A stretch of 20,699 bases of DNA from a virus. The stretch covers positions 1 to 20,699 of the IMG/VR virus record IMGVR_UViG_3300006332_000122; one strand, 5' to 3'. Both the position numbers and the translations under genes were made by a program. The stretch's first letter is position 1; every line of letters begins with the position of its first letter. Below the pieces are notes generated by a model that was not told where the DNA came from, ran no database searches, and worked only from the letters and a program-made list of their open reading frames with translations. Below are positions 10,227 to 15,822 of the stretch, piece after piece.

Positions 10227-10433
10227 ATGGACTTTGTGAAAGTTGATGGACATGATGGTCTCGTAAGAGACCAAAACACTGGTGCTATCTTGAATTTGGA
10301 CGATTCTGCTATAGCTGCAAGAAGGAAATCTATGCAGCTAAGTTCCGCATTGGATGACATAAATACATTGAAGAATGAAGTCTCTGAACTCAAGTCAATC
10401 CTGCGCGGAATAATAAAAAATGCCAGCAATTAA
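10227..10433 (+). CDS. Small coiled-coil protein (68 aa), conserved cyanophage hypothetical type
   Basis: The 68-residue protein begins M-D-F-V-K-V-D-G-H-D-G-L-V-R-D. I associate this start with short hypothetical proteins in the structural cluster of cyanomyoviruses, from memory. Residues 39-62 form a leucine-heptad helix with alternating charged residues (L-S-S-A-L-D-D-I-N-T-L-K-N-E-V-S-E-L), consistent with a small dimeric or trimeric coiled coil. It starts 9 bases after the 2710-aa gene stops and its last 14 bases overlap the start of the 1800-aa gene, so the three are probably translationally coupled. A small clamp, chaperone or minor virion part for the flanking fibre proteins is possible, but the sequence does not prove any function. 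Confidence 0.75.
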   Translation: MDFVKVDGHDGLVRDQNTGAILNLDDSAIAARRKSMQLSSALDDINTLKNEVSELKSILRGIIKNASN

Positions 10434-13400
10434 TGTAGCTAAGACCGATACCTTTGAGTCTCAAAGGACGAAGATCAATCAAATTAGCACAGCACTTTTC
10501 AACGTCACATCTGGTGGTAGTGACCTATCCACTGGTAACCTACAATTAGGAGATGGTCTAGTTGGAAACCCATCACTTAAATTTACTACTGACACCCAGT
10601 TAGGTCTCTACAAAGCTGGTGTAAAAACTATAGGGTTTGTTAATAGTGGTAAGAAAGTTATTGATTTTCAGTTATCAGAACTTACTTCTTATCAAGATAT
10701 TAATATCCAACAAAGAAAACTAGCACAATCTCTACTTACTATGGTTAGTGGTGGTAGTGGATATGATGCTGGTTCATATACATCAATTCCTCTAATTGGT
10801 GGTACAGGACAAAATGCTACTGCAGATTTTGAAGTATTAGCATTTGATGGTTCTGTTACAAATTCTGGTTCTGGTTATATCACTGGTCAGTATCTATCAG
10901 TTCCTCTTGTTGATGGTAATGGAACTGGAGCAGTTGGAAGCTTTGACGTTAGTGAACTTGAAGGTGCTATCACACAACCTGGTTCTGCTTATTTTCCTTC
11001 TACTTTTGAAAACGTTCCTCTTACAGGAGGAAATGGATCTGGAGCAGAAGCTACCATTGAAATTACTGGTACATCAACTCCTGCAGGAAGTATTACTAAT
11101 ACTGGTAGTGGATATACCGATGGTTCTTATTCACAGGTTCAAATATTTAACGAACCAGTTCAAACATTTGTTGTTACATCTGTAGCTAACCCTAATGCTG
11201 GTGGTTCAGGACAACCAAACTTCATCTATAACATTGACGGTGTAGATCAACCTCAGTTAACACTAGATGTTGGTAACACATATAGATTTGATCTTTCTGA
11301 TTCATCAATAGCAGGAGCTAATCCAGGAACACCAGGAAGTGATCATAGAATAACATTCCAACTTGCTAATGGAGGACCTGTTGATGCGACATTAATTGAA
11401 CCCTTCACTGCTGGTGTTTTCGGACAAGCAGGATGCTTTACTGATCTCGTATTAAAACCTGGTGCTCCCACAGGTAGTCTCAGTCTTCGTTATGATTGTG
11501 CAAACCATCCAGGAATGGGTCCTTCAGGTGGTAGTATTACCACACAAGACACAACAACATACACTAACTATGGTTGGCAAGGTTTCTTTGATGTTACTAT
11601 CTCAGGCGGTGCAGTTACTGATGTACAATGGACTAACACAGGTGTTGATTATGGCACTGGAGATGTAGTTAGCATTCCAAATAGTTTAGTTGGTGGTACA
11701 GGATCTGGATTCGAGTATACTATTTCTAGTGTAACTAATACAGGTATTGTTGATAGTGTAACAATTACTGATAGTGGTGTTAATTATCAAAATGGTGATG
11801 TACTTAGCGTAGCTGATGCTTCTGTAGGAGGTGGAGGTGGATCTGGTTTTCAATGGACAGTCTCAGCTATTCCTGGTGATCTTACTAACTTCGTTCTTAA
11901 TGAGAGAGGATCTGGATATCAAATTGGTGATGTACTAGGATTACCTAAACAAATTTCTAACGTATCTGTATATCTACCTGGTTCAATTGGACCATTCACT
12001 GCAACTTTAAGTACAGGTAGTACGCAGGTAGTTATTACAGATACATCCAGTCTTATAGCAGGTCTAAATGTAGATGGAAGTGCTGGAGATACTGGTGAAC
12101 TTGCTCAAGGAACCACTATTGCATCTGTTGATAGTGCAACACAAATAACACTGTCTGCAAATCCAACTGTATCTGGTTCAGCGAATTTAACATTCTCTAC
12201 AACATCTGCAAACGAACTTACTCTTGCAAACACAGCAGGACTTACTATTGGATTTAAAGTAGAGAAGGTAAGTGGTACAGGTGTACTAGCAGCAGATACA
12301 ACGATTGCTAACGTTGACAGTACCACCACCGTTACATTATCAGATACCCCAACTACACTAGGACCTGCTGTTGTTAACTTTGTTCCTGCATTTGGTGACC
12401 CTGCAGATGATTTTGCTTACACAATTGATACTCTTGGTGAGGTAGGAAGTTTTACTTTAGTAGAAGTAGGTAATGGTTATTCTCCACTTGATGAGTTTAC
12501 GGTAAATGCTGGTGATCTAACTCAACCTATCCCATATCCAGTAACGGTTAAAGACGTTCAAAGGATTACTTTAATTCAAACTGTTGCTGGTGGAACTATT
12601 ACAACTAGTGATACAATAGAAGAATTAGCTGGAGGTGTCACAAACATCACCTTTACAGGTGGTGACATTGCACAAACTACAACTGGTCCTCTTGCTTGTA
12701 GCTGTGTTCAAGGAGCATTTACAGCAACACTCGCAGATACAACTGGTATTAGTGTTGGAGACGCAGTAGCAGAAGATGGAAGTGGTAACCTTGCAGTTAA
12801 TGTTACTGTTGCATCTGTTGATAGTGCAACTCAAGTAACACTATCTGCTGCATTCCTTCAAACTGCTAGTATTAACCTAACATTTACATCAGACGAGGCT
12901 GGAACATTTAGTGCTGTTGCTTCTACAACTGCTGGAAATGGTAGTGGTGCAACATTTGATGTTGTTAGAAGCACAAACGGAGACATCGCAAGTGTTGATG
13001 TTAATGCTGCTGGTCTTGGATATGCTGATTCTGATACAATAACGATTGCTGGTAACTTAATTGGTGGAGCTACTCCTGCAAATGATATTACTGTTACTGT
13101 TGTTACTGTTACTACTGTTACAGCAGTTCCTGTTTTAAATGTTGATTTAGATGGTAGTGGCAATATTTCTACTATTCTAATTGAAGTAGATCAAGGTAGT
13201 GCATTTACTGCTGGACAGCAGTTTATTAAAACTGGTGCTCCTGGAACACAGTATACATCTGATACAGCAGGTAATCTTGAATTTAGATTCTTAATTGACG
13301 TTGGATCTGGTCCAACTCTTACTCCAGCATGGACAATTTATGTTGGTAATACTTATAGATTTGACTTAAGTGATAATAGCGTATCTGGTCACCAATTTGC

Positions 13401-15822
13401 TCTTAGTGAATTTAGAGATGGAACATACGCTCCAAGTTTAGTAGAGAATGTTAATACAACATTAAGTGTATCTAGTTATCAAATAACTGTAGCATCTACT
13501 ACAGGTATTCAGGTTGGAATGCTTGCTTCTGTGACTAGTGGCGATGGTTTATTAGCGTCCAATACAAGAGTTGAATCTATTGACAGTGCAACTCAACTAA
13601 CTCTTACTCTTTTACCAGAAACAGGCGGTGCTTCAGTTCTTACTTTTAGTGGTACTGAATACACTGACGGTGTAGAAAGAGGTGCTGATGCTGCTGGTAA
13701 TGCTTATCTAGATTTAACTGTTACTTCTGCAACTCCAAACCTTTACTACTATTGTGCTTCTGGTGCTGGTCACGAAGACGAAGGTGGTGAAGATAATAAC
13801 GAAGCATTAATAACTGTTGATCCTAACAACCCTAAGACATTTGGTACTGGATTAGTTTTAAGAGCTACAGATATTTCTTCTGTAAATATCGTCACAATGG
13901 AAGTTCTTACTGGTCAGGTAACTGTTTCTGACATCGTAGCTACAGAAGGAACCATTGATACTCTTAGTGCTCCTGATCTTTCATCTACTACTGTTGCAGC
14001 ATCTACTAGCGTTACAACTCCATTAGTTACCGCAGCTGGTTCTGCTCTTACTCTATCAGGAAGTTCTGTATCGTCTACTGCAAACTTCTCAGTTGGTGGA
14101 TTTTCTGTTACTCAATCAACCAGTGATGTTGTTACTACAGGTGAAGTTAAGACTACAAATAAACTTAATGTAAACGATAATATATTCATTGAGAATAATG
14201 TTATTTCTTCTGATTCTGGTAGTGACATAGTTATAACAGCTCCTACTGGTAAAATCACTCAATTTACTGGTTTTGGTTCTATTAATATTCCTGCTGGTAC
14301 AACTGCACAACGTCCTGGTGTTAGTGGTGCAGACAATGGATCTATCAGATTTAATACTGATAGTAATCAATATGAAGGTTATAGTGCTGCAACTTCTTCC
14401 TGGTCTTCTCTTGGTGGTGTAAGAGACTTGGATGGAAACACATACATCACTGCAGAACTTTCTATCGGTTCTAATGATAACACACTCTGGTTCTATAATG
14501 ATGGAGATAATACTGTTAAGTTTACTCCAAATGAATTAGAATTCAGAACTAATAAGACTATTAAGTCTGCAAATGTAACTGCTCCAGCATTTACTAATTG
14601 GATAGCTAACGCACCTGTATTAGTTGGTGCATATCTGAAGTGGAAGAATAATTTATATGAAGTAACTGTAGCTGGTACAACTGCTACAAGTGGTAACGAA
14701 CCAACACACACTTCTGGTGCAATACCAAATGGAACAGCAACTCTGTCCTTCTGGGGTCTTGCAGTTGCTCCTCTGACATTTGTTGACGTTGAGGAAATTA
14801 GATTAGATCCATTAGGTTCTTCTCCCTTCGTGATTAACGGAGATTTGAGACTTAGAGATAATATTATTTCTACAGATATTAGTGATCTAACTTTCCAACC
14901 TAATGCTGGTAAGAAAATTATATGTAATACAAATACTAGCATAGCAATTCCATCTGGTACTGACTCTGAAAGAGGTGCAGTAATCCAAGGTGGTATTAGA
15001 TTTAATACAACTGCTAGTCAGTTTGAAGGTTATGATGGATCTAACTGGGGTTCTCTTGGTGGAGTAAAAGACGTTGATCAAAATACTTACATTATTCCTG
15101 AGACTTCTCCTGGTGCAAACGAGAATATTTTATACTTCTACAATGATGGAACAAACACGATGCGTCTTACTGCATCTGCACTTGAATTTTATAGCGTAGA
15201 TACTATTATCTCTAGTACATCTAGTGAGTTTGAAATTACAGCAAGTTTGATGACATTCGATAATGCTGAAACAACTCTTGATAATACTCTTGCAGATAGA
15301 ACATTCTTACATACCAGTAAGCAATACTTTGACCTAGGTCTTTCTGGTGGTTTATCAGTTGACCCAGTTCTTAGACTTGATAATCAAGGTGATGTTTATT
15401 TCAATACTTCATTCGGTACAGGTAACTTTACTGGAGTCAAAGTTTTTGATGGAGATCTTAAAGAGTTTGAACTTGCAGACACTAAGATTTTAACAGAAAA
15501 AATAACTCTAACAAAGGGTTCTGCAAACACAGGTGGATCTGATATCTACGATGCTGTAGTTGCGGTAGGAGCTAAAACAGTTGTAGTTGCGGAAAACTTA
15601 AATAACAATGATAGAGAGTTTTTTGAGTTTGGTATTATAGATAATGGAACAGATATCTTCCATACAGAGTATGGTAATGTTAGAACTGGACAACAACTAG
15701 TTGTTCCTACGTTCGAGAGAACATCTGGTAACCTTGCTAGAATCAATTTTGAAGTTGGTGCAAACCTTCTTACTGGTCATCAAATCGAGATCACTATCGT
15801 ATCTACTATTACTAAAAAATAA
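10420..15822 (+). CDS. Mosaic fibre-like virion protein with cupredoxin-like domains (1800 aa)
   Basis: The order of modules is as follows. Residues 1-95 are a conserved head (D-T-F-E-S-Q-R-T-K-I-N, then L-G-D-G). Residues 106-241 are G-S-G-Y beta repeats. Residues 248-380 are cupredoxin-like domain 1. Residues 381-514 are Y-x-x-G-D-V repeats. Two V-D-S-A-T-Q repeats lie at 524-657, a third at 765-824 and a fourth at 1013-1078. Residues 953-1140 are a second, split cupredoxin-like domain. Two shaft-like repeats with I-R-F-N-T...E-G-Y...S-L-G-G-V lie near 1286-1375 and 1506-1595. A compact tail domain starts with S-D-I-Y-D-A-V-V-A-V near 1706-1715 and runs to the end. The shaft repeats and tail resemble phage tail-fibre and adhesin proteins, which suggests a surface-exposed fibre or baseplate-edge protein. 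There is no signal peptide or membrane segment. Copper binding is inferred from the motif only. The precise role is unknown. Confidence 0.8.
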   Translation: MPAINVAKTDTFESQRTKINQISTALFNVTSGGSDLSTGNLQLGDGLVGNPSLKFTTDTQLGLYKAGVKTIGFVNSGKKVIDFQLSELTSYQDINIQQRKLAQSLLTMVSGGSGYDAGSYTSIPLIGGTGQNATADFEVLAFDGSVTNSGSGYITGQYLSVPLVDGNGTGAVGSFDVSELEGAITQPGSAYFPSTFENVPLTGGNGSGAEATIEITGTSTPAGSITNTGSGYTDGSYSQVQIFNEPVQTFVVTSVANPNAGGSGQPNFIYNIDGVDQPQLTLDVGNTYRFDLSDSSIAGANPGTPGSDHRITFQLANGGPVDATLIEPFTAGVFGQAGCFTDLVLKPGAPTGSLSLRYDCANHPGMGPSGGSITTQDTTTYTNYGWQGFFDVTISGGAVTDVQWTNTGVDYGTGDVVSIPNSLVGGTGSGFEYTISSVTNTGIVDSVTITDSGVNYQNGDVLSVADASVGGGGGSGFQWTVSAIPGDLTNFVLNERGSGYQIGDVLGLPKQISNVSVYLPGSIGPFTATLSTGSTQVVITDTSSLIAGLNVDGSAGDTGELAQGTTIASVDSATQITLSANPTVSGSANLTFSTTSANELTLANTAGLTIGFKVEKVSGTGVLAADTTIANVDSTTTVTLSDTPTTLGPAVVNFVPAFGDPADDFAYTIDTLGEVGSFTLVEVGNGYSPLDEFTVNAGDLTQPIPYPVTVKDVQRITLIQTVAGGTITTSDTIEELAGGVTNITFTGGDIAQTTTGPLACSCVQGAFTATLADTTGISVGDAVAEDGSGNLAVNVTVASVDSATQVTLSAAFLQTASINLTFTSDEAGTFSAVASTTAGNGSGATFDVVRSTNGDIASVDVNAAGLGYADSDTITIAGNLIGGATPANDITVTVVTVTTVTAVPVLNVDLDGSGNISTILIEVDQGSAFTAGQQFIKTGAPGTQYTSDTAGNLEFRFLIDVGSGPTLTPAWTIYVGNTYRFDLSDNSVSGHQFALSEFRDGTYAPSLVENVNTTLSVSSYQITVASTTGIQVGMLASVTSGDGLLASNTRVESIDSATQLTLTLLPETGGASVLTFSGTEYTDGVERGADAAGNAYLDLTVTSATPNLYYYCASGAGHEDEGGEDNNEALITVDPNNPKTFGTGLVLRATDISSVNIVTMEVLTGQVTVSDIVATEGTIDTLSAPDLSSTTVAASTSVTTPLVTAAGSALTLSGSSVSSTANFSVGGFSVTQSTSDVVTTGEVKTTNKLNVNDNIFIENNVISSDSGSDIVITAPTGKITQFTGFGSINIPAGTTAQRPGVSGADNGSIRFNTDSNQYEGYSAATSSWSSLGGVRDLDGNTYITAELSIGSNDNTLWFYNDGDNTVKFTPNELEFRTNKTIKSANVTAPAFTNWIANAPVLVGAYLKWKNNLYEVTVAGTTATSGNEPTHTSGAIPNGTATLSFWGLAVAPLTFVDVEEIRLDPLGSSPFVINGDLRLRDNIISTDISDLTFQPNAGKKIICNTNTSIAIPSGTDSERGAVIQGGIRFNTTASQFEGYDGSNWGSLGGVKDVDQNTYIIPETSPGANENILYFYNDGTNTMRLTASALEFYSVDTIISSTSSEFEITASLMTFDNAETTLDNTLADRTFLHTSKQYFDLGLSGGLSVDPVLRLDNQGDVYFNTSFGTGNFTGVKVFDGDLKEFELADTKILTEKITLTKGSANTGGSDIYDAVVAVGAKTVVVAENLNNNDREFFEFGIIDNGTDIFHTEYGNVRTGQQLVVPTFERTSGNLARINFEVGANLLTGHQIEITIVSTITKK
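10735..11140 (+). repeat. G-S-G-Y beta repeats, about four copies
   Basis: Residues 106-241 of the 1800-aa protein repeat the pattern G-S-G-Y-x-x-G-x-Y-x-x-x-P-L-x-G-G-x-G-x-x-A roughly every 35-40 residues (G-G-S-G-Y-D-A-G-S-Y, N-S-G-S-G-Y-I-T-G-Q-Y, Q-P-G-S-A-Y, N-T-G-S-G-Y-T-D-G-S-Y). The regular Gly and Tyr spacing fits stacked beta strands. The third copy has A in place of the last G of the motif. Confidence 0.8.
11160..11560 (+). other. Cupredoxin-like domain 1 with full type-1 copper ligand pattern
   Basis: Within the 1800-aa protein, residues 248-380 show L-D-V-G-N-T-Y-R-F-D-L, then D-H-R-I-T-F (H309), then L-R-Y-D-C-A-N-H-P-G-M-G (C360, H363, M366). Plastocyanin-type proteins use the same order: a first His in an H-x-I-x-F strand, then Cys, His and Met in the last loop. 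The Cys-His spacing (C-x2-H) equals that of plastocyanin. Met is two residues closer to His than in plastocyanin. The beta-strand lead-in L-x-V-G-N-T-Y-R-F is typical of this fold. Confidence 0.7.
11641..11960 (+). repeat. Y-x-x-G-D-V beta repeats, three copies
   Basis: Residues about 408-514 of the 1800-aa protein repeat V-D-Y-G-T-G-D-V-V-S-I, V-N-Y-Q-N-G-D-V-L-S-V and S-G-Y-Q-I-G-D-V-L-G-L. The first two are followed by a Gly-rich G-S-G-F segment. This is a variant of the G-S-G-Y family found earlier in the same protein. Confidence 0.75.
11990..12390 (+). repeat. V-D-S-A-T-Q repeats A and B (tandem)
   Basis: These are two tandem copies, each about 60-70 residues, of a beta unit in the 1800-aa protein. 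Copy A has the core I-A-S-V-D-S-A-T-Q-I-T-L-S, and copy B has I-A-N-V-D-S-T-T-T-V-T-L-S. Both end in a strand of the type A-x-L-T-F or V-V-N-F. The units look Ig-like, but no family is assigned. Confidence 0.75.
12712..12890 (+). repeat. V-D-S-A-T-Q repeat C
   Basis: This is the third copy of the unit (V-A-S-V-D-S-A-T-Q-V-T-L-S). Twenty bases at 12811-12830 are identical to 12121-12140 in copy A, so the copies are related at DNA level and could recombine. Confidence 0.75.
13275..13840 (+). other. Cupredoxin-like domain 2, split by an inserted repeat
   Basis: Residues about 953-1140 repeat the scheme of domain 1: Y-V-G-N-T-Y-R-F-D-L, then G-H-Q-F (H991), and much later Y-Y-Y-C-A-S-G-A-G-H-E (C1112, H1118). 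The Cys-His spacing is C-x5-H instead of C-x2-H, and no Met follows. Acidic and Gly residues stand in its place. V-D-S-A-T-Q repeat D (residues 1013-1078) sits between H991 and C1112. The ligand set is incomplete, so copper binding is doubtful. Confidence 0.6.
13453..13652 (+). repeat. V-D-S-A-T-Q repeat D, inserted in cupredoxin-like domain 2
   Basis: This is the fourth copy of the unit (V-E-S-I-D-S-A-T-Q-L-T-L-T), ending S-V-L-T-F-S. The flanking segments D-G-T-Y-A-P-S-L and T-E-Y-T-D-G-V look like one continuous domain interrupted here. Confidence 0.65.
14272..14545 (+). repeat. Fibre shaft-like repeat, copy 1
   Basis: Residues about 1285-1375 of the 1800-aa protein show I-P-A-G-T-T-A-Q-R-P, I-R-F-N-T-D, Y-E-G-Y, S-L-G-G-V-R-D, Y-I-T-A-E and L-W-F-Y-N-D-G. 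This pattern occurs in phage tail-fibre proteins. Confidence 0.75.
14632..14757 (+). other. Y-x(5)-L-Y...P-x-H-x-x-G...N-G module, copy in the 1800-aa protein
   Basis: Residues about 1405-1446 read Y-L-K-W-K-N-N-L-Y-E-V, then E-P-T-H-T-S-G, N-G-T and W-G. A related copy occurs in the last gene at 16988-17106. It is inserted between the two shaft repeats. Confidence 0.6.
14935..15190 (+). repeat. Fibre shaft-like repeat, copy 2
   Basis: Residues about 1506-1595 repeat copy 1: I-P-S-G-T-D-S-E-R, I-R-F-N-T-T, F-E-G-Y, S-L-G-G-V-K-D, Y-I-I-P-E and L-Y-F-Y-N-D-G. The order and spacing match copy 1 closely. Confidence 0.75.

Follow-up and report, generated by a model that had tools for sequence, protein, structure and literature searches.

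Type-1 copper sites are known from electron carriers and enzymes. One of these proteins, amicyanin, holds its C-terminal ligands in the loop HCTPHPFM, i.e. with the spacing C-x2-H-x2-M. In tailed phages, beta sandwiches are known as Ig-like accessory domains, which are appended to various structural proteins. Metal has been described in phage tails as well, the presence of iron in tail fibres having been published together with the Trojan Horse hypothesis (PMC11705849), and for the region that follows VrlC in pelagimyophages the term host recognition cluster has been introduced (PMC7029224). In the literature searched, drawn mostly from outside the subscription journals, nothing was found that describes a cupredoxin within a tail or virion protein of a phage. 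Here, I describe a cupredoxin-like domain, present in two copies (D1 and D2) in a virion structural protein, which is most likely a metal-binding display module.

The window, i.e. the whole stretch of 20,699 nucleotides that was analysed, is an IMG/VR virus record containing five large genes and one small gene, all on the + strand. The protein carrying both D1 and D2 has 1800 residues and is encoded at 10420-15822 (+), with a VrlC-like gene on one side and a small structural gene on the other; its assignment to the virion is based on the ORF translation, PHROGs and gene order. As a whole it matches phrog_6005 (virion structural, E=0), and part of it corresponds to phrog_32294 (baseplate wedge, E 1.3e-77); the label "fibre-like", which an earlier reading of the sequence alone (hereafter the sequence-only reading) had attached to it, is therefore only partly right, PHROGs giving virion structural and baseplate wedge. 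A baseplate wedge gene (211-2025, +) is among its neighbours, and others encode a protein of 2710 aa, a virion protein of 166 aa and a tail fibre protein. The gene lies downstream of gp8 and VrlC, in an order that matches Syn1_096 to Syn1_101 of cyanophage Syn1, namely gp8, the virulence-associated (VrlC) protein, a small gene, the virion structural Syn1_099, another virion structural gene and a large protein. An ORF of 68 codons at 10227-10433 (+), which falls under the 80-aa limit applied to ORFs, shares 14 bases with the beginning of the 1800-aa gene and may be compared with Syn1_098, which precedes Syn1_099. Short G-S-G-Y-like repeat modules lie on either side of D1 (10729-11130 and 11610-11960 of the window), the motif recurring at residues 112, 150, 188, 229, 408 and 497 of the protein.

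D1 comprises residues 244-384 (11149-11571, +), as delimited by alignment, AlphaFold2, Foldseek and profile comparison. Its candidate ligands are His309 (11344-11346), Cys360 (11497-11499), the second His, His363 (11506-11508), and, in the axial position, Met366 (11515-11517), all on the + strand. The ORF translation places the four residues where the sequence-only reading had seen them, in the same order and contexts, the H-x-I-x-F strand being HRITF and the ligand loop YDCANHPGMG, and their conservation exceeds what chance would give. In a first alignment of 40 relatives (A1), taken from IMG/VR, the columns F, H, Y, C, H and G are invariant, His309, Cys360 and His363 each being retained in 40/40, and the axial position is Met in 38/40 and Glu in 2/40; since two site-less copies (L057 and L078) were left out of A1, this alignment alone is no test of the site. 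An independent set of IMG/VR contigs, chosen on Y-C-x-N-H-x-G-M-G only and with at least 90 residues upstream, has the first His at the expected place in 75 of the 76 copies; the lone exception (L241) resembles the nested type of D2, in which the His would fall beyond the upstream stretch that was checked. In a broader alignment of 51 relatives H, C, H and M are all invariant, the independent test in this set, mostly picked on the C/H/M motif, being the His column only. D1 thus shows His, Cys, His and Met in the order of a type-1 copper site, with a short loop from Cys to His. A disulfide between C339 and C360 was considered as the reason for keeping Cys360 and was rejected, C339 being confined to close relatives. 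The H-x2-M spacing, which the sequence-only reading had taken as a ground for doubting copper, is identical in the copper site of amicyanin and is therefore no argument against this metal.

In direct searches, D1 has no match to Pfam PF00127 and nothing significant in Pfam, NCBIfam or PDB by sequence search, and, among the phage domains scanned, no member passes the Pfam Copper-bind cut-off (4/51 members, best E 8.4e-4). Phosphoglucomutases, the top matches of D1 in the PDB sequence search, are noise, and an MS_channel match at residues 397-424 (E 0.019, under the cut-off) is due to chance. A profile search of PDB brings up plastocyanin and pseudoazurin in the correct register, only at E 0.05-0.2. 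Direct comparison of the phage profile with bacterial PF00127 proteins by hhalign gives Prob 80-84 with a score of 34 (P ~1e-5), to be set against scores of 14.7 at most for 60 column-shuffled profiles; with the four ligand columns masked, the direct Prob drops to 1-5. The kinship is better settled through a family of Flavobacteriaceae proteins, since this family bridges both sides: the phage profile matches such proteins in 10 of 151 genomes, with E down to 1e-40, and the intermediates nearest to cupredoxins are linked to the phage family with Prob 99.5 (P 5e-23) and to PF00127 cupredoxins with Prob 96-97 (P 2e-10), one of them lying within half a bit of the Copper-bind cut-off. Homology of the phage domain to the cupredoxin superfamily is thus supported at the level of profiles, both directly and via bacterial intermediates. 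Three Flavobacteriaceae reading frames (L325, L326 and L327) of 5500-7500 residues, probably giant surface proteins, contain domains closely related to it (E 1e-28 to 1e-40).

AlphaFold2 predicts a confident beta sandwich for D1 (mean pLDDT 87.8, pTM 0.84) and models a compact relative with a mean pLDDT of 90.3. In the D1 model the first His stands right before a strand, the Cys is the end of the penultimate one, and the second His and the Met lie in the loop preceding the last one, pLDDT being only ~68 near Met366; this order of the four residues along the strands agrees with a type-1 copper site. Searched with Foldseek against solved structures, the D1 model matches rusticyanin, copper nitrite reductase and amicyanin (E 0.02-0.1), Ig domains of FLT3 being also among the top matches. 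The compact model does best with a multicopper oxidase (E 1.3e-3) and with rusticyanin (E 2.2e-3, prob 1.00, TMq 0.53-0.59), Ig domains reaching TMq 0.36-0.44 among the matches listed, below rusticyanin. For neither model does any solved structure score E < 1e-3, and Ig domains follow closely behind; cupredoxins are thus, weakly, the closest solved folds to the predicted D1. Fold prediction and profile comparison, the latter direct as well as via the intermediates, support the cupredoxin-like character proposed in the sequence-only reading. In BFVD, the compact model also matches three "Beta-sandwich proteins" of giant viruses (A0A481Z6J5, A0A481YVH3 and A0A481Z7Q7, from metagenome-derived Pithovirus and Marseillevirus genomes; E 4e-8 to 9e-6, TMq 0.65-0.75).

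The second copy, overlooked by the sequence-only reading, which named D1 only, spans residues 976-1133 (D2, 13345-13818, +) and is recognised by its homology to D1 and by alignment to the compact members once its insert is removed. The insert is a module of 69 residues (1011-1079; 13450-13656, +); three free-standing copies of it, 38-51% identical, occur elsewhere in the protein, at residues 524-594 (11989-12201, +), 597-655 (12208-12384, +) and 765-825 (12712-12894, +), with pairwise E from 1e-11 to 8e-16. The first His of D2 is His991 (13390-13392, +), and its C-terminal ligand loop, C-x5-H-x2-E, comprises Cys1112, His1118 and Glu1121 (13753-13782, +). Loop length and axial residue go together among nested copies, C-x5/6-H being paired with Glu in 21/21 and C-x2-H with Met in 5/6. 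D2 is a second copy with a Cys/His/His/Glu variant of the site and another module inserted in a loop.

As to the distribution of the domain, a composite query assembled from family members retrieves no fewer than 351 records of phages that carry it; marine Synechococcus and Prochlorococcus phages account for almost all of these, and a few Pelagibacter and Methylophilales phages are also among them. As the query is composite, this figure applies to the family and not to D1 itself; D1 of the window, used alone as query, retrieves 36 records. A search of plasmids for the domain gave no match. The domain is found in gp9-like connectors, tail fibres and structural proteins, and also at the extreme end of proteins of 240-275 residues encoded beside adaptor-like genes. 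Examples of the latter, with a C-terminal cupredoxin-like domain, are L204:572-1402 (-), L246:5335-6159 (-) and L251:4544-5263 (-); in L204 and L246 the N-terminus resembles a zinc ribbon (CxxC ... CxxC), and the genes have adaptor-like neighbours in a T7-like structural region. The domain is contained in at least seven PHROG families (30742, 27200, 693, 677, 708, 6005 and 32294); they are unlabelled or tail families, and none of their listed descriptions mentions cupredoxin or metal binding.

If the candidate ligands bind a metal, they should be kept or lost as a set. Among nested copies, His and Cys are both present in 27 and both absent in 15, His alone occurs in 1 and Cys alone in none (Fisher p 1e-10, without correction for kinship); the tree indicates at least three independent joint losses in D2, while a sign test would need more than the three independent pairs that it offers. 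The compact copies comprise 71 with an intact site and three (L057, L078 and L079) in which all the ligands are gone; Met is present in 67/74, and in a further copy (L081) it is shifted one residue on. The D2 of L043 (residue 950 on) is the sole copy seen with Ser in place of Cys and both His retained, which from its sequence makes it a natural candidate for an intermediate in site loss. It could be objected that the domain is simply a captured beta sandwich, free of metal, in which the ligand residues persist only because folding needs them. The direct profile similarity does lie mostly in the ligands themselves, Foldseek scores are weak with Ig domains near, and the fold signature seemingly persists in the ligand-less copies. 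Yet these very copies, in which the YRFD and YYY strands around the ligands persist, show that the residues are dispensable for the fold, and they are lost together and otherwise invariant, as a metal site predicts; I therefore give the metal-free sandwich very little chance.

The reading I favour, with a confidence somewhat above even, is that D1 has the cupredoxin fold and an intact, copper-filled mononuclear metal site, and that it serves as a rigid, exposed module for recognition or spacing and not as an electron carrier. His309, Cys360, His363 and Met366 would form the site, C-x2-H-x2-M as in amicyanin; it would be occupied by Cu(I) or Cu(II), probably gained at lysis or from seawater. 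By fixing the loop at one end of the beta sandwich, the metal would make the module rigid and exposed, fit for recognition or spacing in the host-recognition part of the virion, and the domain itself would be a mobile accessory module that has become fused to marine-phage structural proteins. I infer exposure and a receptor role from gene position and annotation; as for the metal, the ligand set suggests that it is probably copper. Copper loading is uncertain, because virion assembly takes place in the cytosol, a compartment poor in copper.

The same circumstance favours zinc, and the cupredoxin fold could carry a genuine metal site in which zinc or another metal acts as a purely structural staple. 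Conservation and joint loss point to a metal and not specifically to copper, and the change of the axial Met to Glu in some compact and nearly all nested copies would suit a harder metal; on the other hand, His, Cys, His and Met with exactly the spacing of amicyanin is the classical copper set, and the Met is retained in most compact copies (see above), which makes this alternative rather unlikely. A more speculative reading retains copper and would make of it a decoy: a host-surface protein for the uptake or handling of copper would recognise the loaded domain, much as has been proposed for iron in phage tails. The domain does lie in the host-recognition part of the genome; I know of no such copper receptor in Prochlorococcus, Synechococcus or SAR11, and the domain also ends small proteins of T7-like regions near adaptor-like genes, which are not obvious receptor binders. 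The iron of tail fibres and the Trojan Horse hypothesis (PMC11705849) nevertheless offer a precedent, and OprC, a copper transporter, is reported as a possible partner of azurin (PMC11836926); on balance a decoy role seems very unlikely. Hardly probable at all is an exchange of electrons with periplasmic proteins of the host upon infection: electron-transfer cupredoxins have this same set of ligands, plastocyanin is in use in some of the hosts, and a separate petE gene is carried by cyanophages (PMC3037559), but the domain is fused into large structural proteins, which makes electron transfer unlikely, no partner is seen, it also occurs in Pelagibacter and Methylophilales phages, and in many lineages the Met is swapped for Glu or the site is lost.

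With the full set of ligands retained across hundreds of marine phages in their structural proteins, a widespread group of marine viruses may harbour a bound transition metal, which would bear on host recognition and on the metal accounting of the viral fraction of seawater. A bolder extension, which I regard as quite unlikely, is that marine phages as a class carry copper in type-1-like virion sites and use it in adsorption, for instance by being taken for a source of copper by the host, and that the long-loop Cys-x5/6-His-x2-Glu arrangement of D2 represents a new type of cupredoxin site in a split domain. Several isolates carrying the domain can be grown, so that the metal content of their virions is directly measurable, and the PHROG families in question, at least seven in number, gain a testable name for one of their domains.

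To sum up, the comparison with known systems is as follows. With the HxH iron tail fibres (T4 gp37 and that of alterophage R22Y) the D1 family has in common that a metal is proposed in a marine phage tail; the fibres carry HxH pairs along the trimer, whereas the D1 family has one site per domain, and no HxH motif was found on reading the sequence of the 1800-aa protein by eye. From the Ig-like domains of phages it is set apart by TM-scores that favour cupredoxins and by its conserved candidate metal ligands. The nearest cellular relatives found are the C-terminal domains of secreted Flavobacteriaceae proteins (L328-L333), which retain HPF and C-x2-H-x2-M; they differ in standing outside virions, several of them C-terminal to Lipoprotein_15 or CHRD domains, and in being without the long insert ahead of the first His. 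Amicyanin (PDB 1aac) and the other type-1 cupredoxins of PF00127 share with D1 the ligand order His, Cys, His, Met, a beta sandwich, predicted in the case of D1, with its ligand loop before the last strand, and profile similarity. Unlike these proteins, D1 resides in a virion structural protein and not in a free periplasmic carrier, scores below the Pfam cut-off and has a long loop ahead of the first His, D2 adding the Glu variant and the inserted domain; and, while amicyanin belongs to the mau cluster with methylamine dehydrogenase as its partner, the gene for D1 sits among phage baseplate and tail genes. The fold and the site are of known kinds, and the virion setting, the wide spread and the long-loop Glu variant are, as far as checked, new.
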